From the NCBI GenBank assembly GCA_017525245.1, contig JAFXTE010000090.1, positions 1-36,272 of the forward strand: 36,272 nt of DNA, given 5' to 3'. This document shows, in pieces, positions 4,631 through 5,511 of this stretch. Numbering within the stretch: position 1 is the first letter of the stretch; the number at the start of each line of letters is the position of its first letter. The DNA is from Bacteroidales bacterium (GTDB lineage: Bacteria; Bacteroidota; Bacteroidia; Bacteroidales; WCHB1-69). The notes under the pieces are model-generated. The model saw only the letters and a list, made by a program, of their open reading frames with translations, searched no databases and was not told where the DNA came from. The position numbers and the translations under genes were made by a program.

Positions 4631-4785
4631 AAAGGATGATTCCACAACGACGAATCTATATTCAACCTCGGCTAATCATAATTTCACATGCGTCACAACA
4701 TGCTAGATCAATAGGTGTTAGATTTGACTCTTAAGACGTTGGAGTGATTTTACTGGCCACGGCTGAAAGACGCGGCCGAAGCCCA

Positions 4786-4834
4786 ATTCCCCTTCTATTT
4801 TAGAAGGGGTGCCCGAAGGGCGGGGTAGTAATAT
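4786..4834 (+). repeat. Left 49-bp inverted repeat of the DUF559 unit
   Basis: This is the inverted partner of 5351-5399, with one mismatch in 49. It contains the hairpin CCCCTTCTA-TTT-TAGAAGGGG followed by GCCC-GAA-GGGC. A possible GTG start of the nuclease (4809) lies inside it. Confidence 0.9.
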
Positions 4835-4859
4835 AGACATCAAAATTCTTTGTGAATCA

Positions 4860-5276
4860 ATGACAATCATCAACGGCATCAGAATAAAAGACCGCTACGT
4901 CCACAATCTCCCTGAAAATAGAGAGTTGCTGAGTTACGCACGTAAAAATCGCAAAGCTGGCAATATGGCCGAAATCGCGTTTTGGAAACAAGTACACAAA
5001 AAAATCTTCCACGGGCTTGATTTTGACAGACAAAAAGTCATAGGCAACTATATCGTTGACTTTTTCGTGAAAAAACTTGGACTTGTAGTCGAGATCGACG
5101 GTGGTTCTCACAATGACAAAGCAGACTATGACGCCCGACGAGACAAATATCTGGAAAAATTTGGACTTAAAGTCTTCCACACGACAGATTTTGATGTACT
5201 ACAGCATGTGAAATTAGTGTTGGCGGATTTAAGGAAATACATAATTGAAAATTATGAGCATGAGGATCTCAAATAG
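4860..5276 (+). CDS. DUF559 family PD-(D/E)XK-like endonuclease
   Basis: The product is a small single-domain protein of the DUF559 family, related in fold to very-short-patch-repair (Vsr) endonucleases and other PD-(D/E)XK nucleases. From the ATG at 4860 it has 138 residues. Recognisable pieces are YARKNRKAGNMAEIAFWKQV, FDRQKVIGNYIVDFF with a likely catalytic Asp, and LVVEIDGGSHNDKADYDARR with Glu and Asp at the active-site strand, then YLEKFGLKVFHTTDFDV. The frame stays open upstream to a GTG at 4809 that lies inside the left inverted repeat, which would add 17 residues; ATG 4860 is preferred because the extra residues are encoded by repeat DNA. It is enclosed by the inverted repeats and followed by a decayed copy of its own tail. 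The family has no established cellular role known to me. Confidence 0.82.
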   Translation: MTIINGIRIKDRYVHNLPENRELLSYARKNRKAGNMAEIAFWKQVHKKIFHGLDFDRQKVIGNYIVDFFVKKLGLVVEIDGGSHNDKADYDARRDKYLEKFGLKVFHTTDFDVLQHVKLVLADLRKYIIENYEHEDLK

Positions 5277-5278
5277 GG

Positions 5279-5344
5279 GAAGTCTTCATGCAAGACTAAG
5301 CAGACGTACTGCAACACGTCCTTGAATATTACAAGGAATACTGA
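5279..5344 (+). pseudogene. Decayed second copy of the DUF559 gene tail
   Basis: Directly after the nuclease stop codon, the frame reads EVFMQD, a stop, then ADVLQHVLEYYKEY and a stop. It aligns codon for codon, without gaps, with KVFHTTDFDVLQHV of the intact gene (5169-5210): 8 of 14 positions are identical, including all six of DVLQHV. Synonymous third-base changes (GTA CTA CAG CAT GTG against GTA CTG CAA CAC GTC) show that this is an old protein-coding duplicate rather than a recent slip. It ends 6 bases before the right inverted repeat. Confidence 0.65.
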
Positions 5345-5350
5345 TATTTA

Positions 5351-5399
5351 ATATTACTACCCCGCCCTACGGGCACCCCTTCTAAAATAGAAGGGGAAT
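5351..5399 (-). repeat. Right 49-bp inverted repeat of the DUF559 unit
   Basis: This is the inverted partner of 4786-4834. The one difference is in the loop of the small hairpin (GCCC-TAC-GGGC here, GCCC-GAA-GGGC on the left), so the stem is preserved. A further perfect hairpin, CGGCAC-TGTA-GTGCCG, lies just outside at 5410-5425. Confidence 0.9.
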
Positions 5400-5511
5400 A
5401 CTCCCGCATCGGCACTGTAGTGCCGTGGACAGTAATTGAGTGCAGACGAGTGACTTGGCACTTCTATAATATAATCGTAACCTACTCGCTGAAGCAAATT
5501 GACTCACAAAA

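Follow-up and report, generated by a model that had tools for sequence, protein, structure and literature searches.

We found that a small nuclease gene of the DUF559 family lies in a compact unit with inverted, multi-hairpin ends in a Bacteroidales genome. This unit is probably mobile. It is likely to be a REP/REPIN-like element in which a Vsr/EDxHD-type nuclease replaces the HUH transposase, with lineages that keep to particular sites much as homing genes do. The window, here and below, is the whole stretch of DNA that was analysed (36,272 nucleotides). REP-like palindromes are common bacterial repeats. In the available text of PMC3733652 and PMC3116915, the enzyme tied to such palindromes is the HUH-type RAYT only, and the former also describes CGTC repeats that have no transposase partner.

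Layout of the unit in the window

The unit spans positions 4750 to 5435. Its neighbours are two genes, one for DNA polymerase III alpha and one of the S4/FtsJ (TlyA) type. Its features are as follows.

4750 to 4763, plus strand: outer block of the left end (TTACTGGCCACGGC), with its inverted counterpart at 5422 to 5435 (13/14); read from the sequence
4760 to 4778, plus strand: hairpin 0, left (CGGC...GCCG), with a stem of 4 bp only; read from the sequence
4786 to 4834, plus strand: left 49-bp inverted repeat; inverted-arm search
4789 to 4809, plus strand: hairpin 1, left, the palindrome CCCCTTCTATTTTAGAAGGGG; arm search and end-copy collection
4811 to 4821, plus strand: hairpin 2, left, GCCC-GAA-GGGC; pairing in end copies
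4822 to 4829, plus strand: left G-run tag GGGGTAGT, toward the gene; sequence and end-copy collection
4860 to 5276, plus strand: DUF559 nuclease-family gene, 138 aa, predicted I-Bth0305I/Vsr-like fold; Pfam, alignment and predicted structure
5351 to 5399, minus strand: right 49-bp inverted repeat; inverted-arm search
5356 to 5363, minus strand: right G-run tag, toward the gene; read from the sequence
5364 to 5374, minus strand: hairpin 2, right, whose loop has the sole mismatch; sequence and arm search
5376 to 5396, minus strand: hairpin 1 palindrome, right; arm search
5410 to 5425, minus strand: hairpin 0, right, with a 6-bp stem; read from the sequence
5422 to 5435, minus strand: outer block of the right end; read from the sequence

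An earlier note on this DNA had described two inverted 49-bp blocks, identical at 48 of 49 positions, around one nuclease gene. An arm search reproduced them: the 49-nt arms are 98% complementary (48/49) and are separated by 516 nt. The note had also placed a second inverted pair of 14-bp blocks (13/14) at 22 bases on each side, and reading the sequence confirmed both the blocks and the 22-nt spacers (4764-4785 and 5400-5421) that separate them from the arms. The spacer sequences are unlike and, as had been claimed, both sides can still fold a CGGC/GCCG hairpin (4760-4778; 5410-5425). The only mismatch between the arms, GAA versus GTA, is indeed at the position of a hairpin loop, that of hairpin 2. 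The inverted repeats flanking the gene scored 46 and none of 20 shuffles exceeded 10, so the inverted ends are not due to chance.

The gene between the ends belongs to DUF559 (PF04480; E 2e-25, 89.2 bits against a curated cut-off of 20.6). The mechanically called open reading frame begins at a GTG at 4809, and the alignment of relatives begins at the ATG at 4860. We take the latter as the probable start, a refinement set by that alignment. An Rfam search of positions 4700 to 5500 gave no match at E<=0.5.

It could be that the repeats are the REPs of a RAYT, an HUH Y1 enzyme, and that the DUF559 gene is incidental. The geometry of REPINs and their tags do resemble what we see here (PMC3116915 and PMC3733652, as far as their text was available). 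However, the only other open reading frame of at least 80 aa between the window ends is an antisense one of 107 aa, inside DUF559 and with no Pfam match, and there is no HUH Y1 transposase between those ends. We consider a RAYT origin very improbable. We saw no known transposase in the window unit.

Base pairing in the end hairpins

Read from outside to inside, each end has hairpin 0 (of the type CGGCAC..GTGCCG), hairpin 1 (CCCCTTCT..AGAAGGGG), hairpin 2 (GCCC-NNN-GGGC) and the G-run tag. By similarity and by the hairpin-1 pattern, we gathered 72 end copies that differ from one another. Hairpin 2 could be parsed in 68 of the 72, and all 68 were fully paired. The second base pair of this hairpin is C-G in 47 copies and G-C in 21, that is, GCCC/GGGC switches with GGCC/GGCC; the switches are not independent events because many of the end copies are related. 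When the right arms of hairpin 2 were redealt among the copies, the mean number fully paired was 37.8 and the maximum was 49, versus the 68 observed. Three of the four unparsed copies have a slightly different hairpin-2 setting and one (L011) has no hairpin.

Upstream of hairpin 1, a stem of at least 6 bp (hairpin 0) was found in 36 of the 72 copies, compared to 41 of 1440 shuffled stretches. The remaining 36 copies have no hairpin 0 of at least 6 bp, and some are unlike anywhere outside hairpin 1. There is thus compensatory pairing in the end hairpins, and the view that secondary structure is conserved at the ends held up, with hairpin 2 paired in 68/68 copies across C-G and G-C switches.

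Copies of the ends in the same genome and genus

The ends are multi-copy. A search of the window's own genome located the end at 13 places (E<=1e-5), and four of these are the ends of two DUF559 units. Such matches are present in 37 of the 40 genomes of the genus, with up to 28 per genome. We also asked if related DUF559 genes lack the ends, and found that in general they do not: 11 of 13 related DUF559 loci (some of their contigs reappear among the loci from the genome search) have end copies, at 10 of them on both sides and inverted. Of the two without end copies, one (L043) starts at a contig edge with its gene cut short, and the other (L047) is a distant relative whose inverted ends are of another kind.

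End copies with and without the gene, for which the earlier note had suggested a search, both exist in the genus: there are intact units, units with shortened or remnant genes, and dispersed ends. In four loci from other genus members (L267, L268, L274 and L275) two ends surround a shortened or remnant DUF559 gene, although one of the two ends is partly lost in L275. These internal-deletion derivatives relate to full units as MITEs do to transposons. Some members of the genus (G012 and G004) combine numerous ends with DUF559 matches that are no more than weak.

The unit is not fixed between dnaE and tlyA. Out of 29 other tlyA loci retrieved, 18 were compared. The dnaE side was kept in two of the 18 (G020 and G013; tlyA 90-91% identical), and in both the gap has a different gene and no DUF559 unit. 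At none of the 18 was the site of the window unit cleanly empty. Reading the DNA of these two intervals by eye (L220 and L221), we saw one small gene and another that is PIN/VapC-like.

We made several other observations in these genomes. A second unit of the window type (L033 1255-2085, on G000:C80) has an inverted repeat of ~170 bp that runs well past the end modules. A third DUF559 gene of the same genome (L032 1309-1976, on G000:C105) has, in place of simple inverted ends, a double palindrome of ~110 bp on each side, with the two copies in direct orientation. This genome also has another family of related repeats (CCCCCTGCCCTTCGGGCATCCCCCCTAAAGGGGGGAATGG with its variants) at L013-L026, for example at G000:C60:35208-35255, and part of this family forms a tandem array on C11 (15208-15321) with steps of ~27 bp. 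Within the genus, a protein of ~450 aa with a short DUF559-like stretch recurs (L035, L076 and others). Among loci with such a weak DUF559-like stretch (L035, L075-L077), 0 of 4 have repeat flanks.

Repeats flank DUF559 genes in four phyla

We looked for inverted or direct repeats with a score of at least 15 in the 350 bp on each side of DUF559 genes; the maxima for shuffled sequences were 11 to 16, depending on the group. The loci were the best-scoring among the matches listed, not every match, and three with flanks that were too short (two from the window's genome, genus and order, one from the phylum sample) were left out. Flank repeats were found at 38 of 49 mostly stand-alone DUF559 loci from four phyla: 16 of 22 stand-alone loci in the window's genome, genus and order, 12 of 13 in a sample of the phylum, and 10 of 14 on plasmids of Cyanobacteriota, Alphaproteobacteria, Gammaproteobacteria and Deinococcota. 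The plasmid loci came from 14 of 42 matching records, picked for spread and with human pathogens left out, and one of them is inside a longer open reading frame. Every positive in the three sets scored at least 20, above the shuffles. Some of the repeats are direct, since an entire double palindrome lies on each side of the gene, as in L032. Among DUF559 domains within open reading frames of at least 300 aa, flank repeats were found at 2 of 3 and 9 of 15. Thus, the DUF559 family is associated with palindromic ends in four phyla.

A matching flank pair was absent at 11 of the 49 loci. By eye, the plasmid loci without a pair (L112, L113, L120 and L121) have one-sided modules of the same design. 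At the gammaproteobacterial plasmid locus, the flank pair was not found. The flanks of ycjD in Escherichia coli have no repeats of the end type.

The nuclease might instead be a passenger, or a Vsr-like defence or repair enzyme, near repeats that gather in intergenic DNA or act as terminators or insulators. Some anti-phage proteins (Hhe, ProA) have a DUF559-like domain at their end, to which the S. meliloti protein gave weak matches, and the Caulobacter protein VsrA, a DUF559 protein with the same fold and family as the window protein, acts in DNA damage (PMC12907096, as available to us). Against this, 38 of the 49 DUF559 loci have flank repeats, versus none of 30 loci of UPF0102, a different family of small PD-(D/E)XK nucleases, from genomes within the same order. 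We regard a passenger or defence role as quite improbable. A search of a defence-protein library gave only weak, partial matches. The account of VsrA also differs from ours in that it concerns repair, and the term 'inverted repeat' is absent from its main text, as far as that was available (PMC12907096).

Repeats and DUF559 genes occur in the same genomes

The association of the ends with DUF559 genes, which the earlier note had proposed to check, was seen across the phylum for one repeat class. This class, a palindrome arm plus tag, was defined by the pattern GGAGAGGGN{0,6}GGGTGAGG, which was drawn from DUF559 flanks. DUF559 (E<=1e-10) is present in 163 of 395 genomes and the pattern in 96; a reversed control pattern had 6 matches in total. 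Both were found in 74 genomes, the repeat only in 22, DUF559 only in 89 and neither in 210. The odds ratio was 7.9 (Fisher p 3e-16), where a few pattern matches can be ends of a DUF559 unit itself. When DUF559 was shuffled within taxonomic families, the mean number of genomes with both was 58 and the maximum in 5000 permutations was 69, versus 74 observed (p <=0.0002); the Mantel-Haenszel odds ratio stratified by family was ~6. DUF559 was present in 36 of the 44 genomes with at least five repeat copies, a number reached in 0 of 5000 permutations. With a threshold of at least three copies, the within-family p was 0.0002.

Among the 22 genomes that have the repeat and no strong DUF559 match, 8 were searched a second time, at E<=10. 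Three had matches over the curated cut-off, one had a weaker match, and four (G449, G081, G163 and G184) had none. These four have 5 to 30 palindrome-plus-tag copies each. Their repeats may have another partner, or the DUF559 gene may have been lost.

The nuclease has a predicted Vsr-like fold

An AlphaFold2 model of the window protein, based on 9 sequences, had a mean pLDDT of 89.8. Its best matches among solved folds were 3hrl, an endonuclease-like protein (E 1e-5), and 3r3p, I-Bth0305I (E 2.9e-4). Vsr (1cw0/1vsr) was matched with a fold probability of 0.98/0.96 and an E of about 0.1, and 3hrl was also matched by sequence (E 8e-22). The predicted fold is thus I-Bth0305I/Vsr-like. Residues E38, D67, E78, D80, H84 and D91 are invariant across the 9 sequences. 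These acidic and histidine residues, among which we take those of the EDxHD motif to be, fit a putative Vsr/EDxHD active site.

DUF559 genes have appeared in other settings. In the parts of these reports available to us, a DUF559 gene is ascribed to the EDxHD homing family (PMC9403480), and a repeated segment with a transposase and DUF559 is a recombination hotspot (PMC12308824). In titles and abstract openings of open-licence papers, we found none that ties DUF559 to palindromic mobile ends; an earlier description is possible. We saw no sign that the window DUF559 is a phage gene: phage records had no DNA match to the window unit, and one scan of viral contigs gave only 4 DUF559 relatives.

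Units inserted in frame in conserved genes

Many of the DUF559 domains among the strongest matches are in long open reading frames. Translations and Pfam matches revealed in-frame units inside leuS, metH, hsdR, and methylase and epimerase-type genes. The ends of these in-gene units are translated too, for example as PLSLGEGQGER. The left end in metH is GCCCCCCAACCCCCAAAGGGGGAGT and the right end, from another strain, is GCTCCCCCTTCGGGGGCGGGGGGGGCT. Through such insertions the palindromes become part of translated genes, so they are not only intergenic filler, which also speaks against the nuclease being a passenger.

We found both occupied and empty alleles of one site in metH. The metH region is present in 54 of 61 genomes of one genus, and we read the occupancy of one linker site at 30 of these 54 loci. 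It was occupied in four (one of them the query genome) and empty in 26. No target-site duplication was seen at the borders, where the linker is too diverged for exact borders to be drawn. In leuS, all five inserts examined lie before one and the same motif, FTTR(P/A)DT.

The inserts form site-bound lineages. In a tree of 63 DUF559 domains, which is weakly resolved because it has 117 columns, seven metH inserts (families f31, f42 and f60) are on one side of a branch (support 99/94), and three hsdR inserts are likewise on one side of a branch (100/99). The leuS inserts do not form a single clade in the best tree, and a single clade was not rejected (p-AU 0.24). The epimerase insert joins a leuS insert with low support (87/56). 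Site-bound lineages with occasional moves are consistent with homing combined with rare transposition. For metH, the distribution of the inserts may alternatively stem from vertical inheritance and loss.

It is possible, though we think it unlikely, that these are simply homing endonuclease genes, which cut an allelic empty site and spread by gene conversion only, with the ends serving as a landing pad or site protection and dispersed in some other way. The nearest characterised fold is that of a homing endonuclease, I-Bth0305I, and a DUF559 gene has been placed in the EDxHD homing family, as noted above. Both metH and leuS have inserts that recur at the same site, metH has empty alleles as well, and the metH inserts of three families are on one branch. 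However, one genus has intergenic units, at a place that is empty of units in two relatives, and end copies are dispersed through most genomes of that genus. Allelic homing alone is therefore insufficient. In addition, no intein or splicing domain was found at E<=1e-6 in the 10 insert-bearing proteins scanned (of 17 long open reading frames).

Doublets with and without the gene on plasmids

We ran a generic pattern, CTCCCC..GGGGAG..GGAGGGGG, on nine plasmid records, and it matched in six. One Sphingomonas plasmid had 10 matches, 5 per strand, and none to a reversed control. These make up five doublets, four with a 30-bp spacer and one around a DUF559 domain. That is, one replicon has the same end pair with and without the gene. 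Gene-less doublets that share modules with a gene-bearing one again argue against a passenger. The annotated Sphingomonas gene (67228-67623) extends through the right module, and two transhydrogenase genes are on either side. Two Deinococcus records had 4 and 2 matches (control 0), and an S. meliloti record had 1 match versus 0 for the control. In Azospirillum, Sphingobium and Novosphingobium the reversed control scored above the pattern, and in two of the nine records neither matched. Outside Sphingomonas and Deinococcus, the generic pattern is uninformative because the control was higher, was near-equal, or nothing matched. The tags point inward in the window and Sphingomonas units, and outward in the metH and Deinococcus gene units.

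A palindrome doublet also adjoins a Sinorhizobium DUF559 gene (L113). Matches to this doublet number at least 1238. They come from 179 of 72,556 plasmid records, and 140 of the 179 are from Rhizobium or Sinorhizobium. A DUF559 search of the same collection found 42 records, 4 of them from Sinorhizobium.

A model for the unit and its relation to known systems

In the mobile unit that we propose, inverted end modules of a REP-like kind enclose one gene for a PD-(D/E)XK nuclease (DUF559, of Vsr/EDxHD type). A module consists of a palindrome with C/G runs, in most cases another hairpin that is variable, and the G-run tag. Ends that stand alone or have lost the gene would be non-autonomous descendants of the unit, in the way that REPINs descend from RAYT genes. 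The nuclease may recognise folded or cruciform ends and nick or cut at the ends and at tag-like targets, and repair of the break would then copy the unit into it. Copying would mostly be homing-like, into an allelic empty site, and rarely elsewhere at a tag-like target. We infer that DUF559 itself moves the unit. Counting against the model are the repeat-bearing genomes in which DUF559 is weak or was not found, the bare flanks of ycjD, the 11 loci with no flank pair, the small number of plasmid records with DUF559 relative to those with the Sinorhizobium doublet, the three records in which the generic pattern fell below its control, and the opposite tag polarities; nor did we see a target-site duplication. 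The earlier note had likened the window to a REP/RAYT system with DUF559 as its sole protein, and the multi-copy ends and the relatives that also have ends support this comparison.

The unit and REP/REPIN-RAYT (TnpA_REP) systems have in common tagged palindromic modules, inverted doublets, non-autonomous copies, and a small DNA-processing gene between modules. They differ in the enzyme, which is PD-(D/E)XK and Vsr-like here and an HUH Y1 transposase in RAYTs, in their tags, and in that DUF559 units are also inserted in frame in conserved genes. The predicted fold of the unit's protein is like that of EDxHD homing endonucleases such as I-Bth0305I, and, as with these, its relatives recur at particular positions of conserved genes; in metH, some alleles are empty. 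In contrast to them, DUF559 units have palindromic multi-copy ends, gene-less derivatives and intergenic sites as well, and the insert-bearing proteins scanned have no intein domain. Rickettsia palindromic elements, too, place palindromic DNA in frame within protein genes; to our knowledge they carry no nuclease gene. The doublet beside the Sinorhizobium DUF559 gene has the two-palindrome design of Rhizobium intergenic mosaic elements (RIMEs) and presumably resembles their sequence. We know of no partner enzyme assigned to RIMEs.

A broader notion, which we are as ready to doubt as to believe, is that DUF559/EDxHD nucleases are the engine of phylum-spanning mobile elements that spread palindromes to intergenic places and also insert themselves in frame, without splicing, in conserved genes like leuS and metH, and that they are the missing partner of orphan repeats such as RIME. 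If true, a second, unrelated nuclease family would follow the logic of REP elements, and this way of life would have evolved more than once. Orphan repeat families would gain a partner enzyme that can be tested. A protein of about 140 aa with two hairpin ends would be a simple model for nuclease-driven copying, and that model would also cover the tolerated insertion of a domain, in frame, into a tRNA synthetase and methionine synthase.
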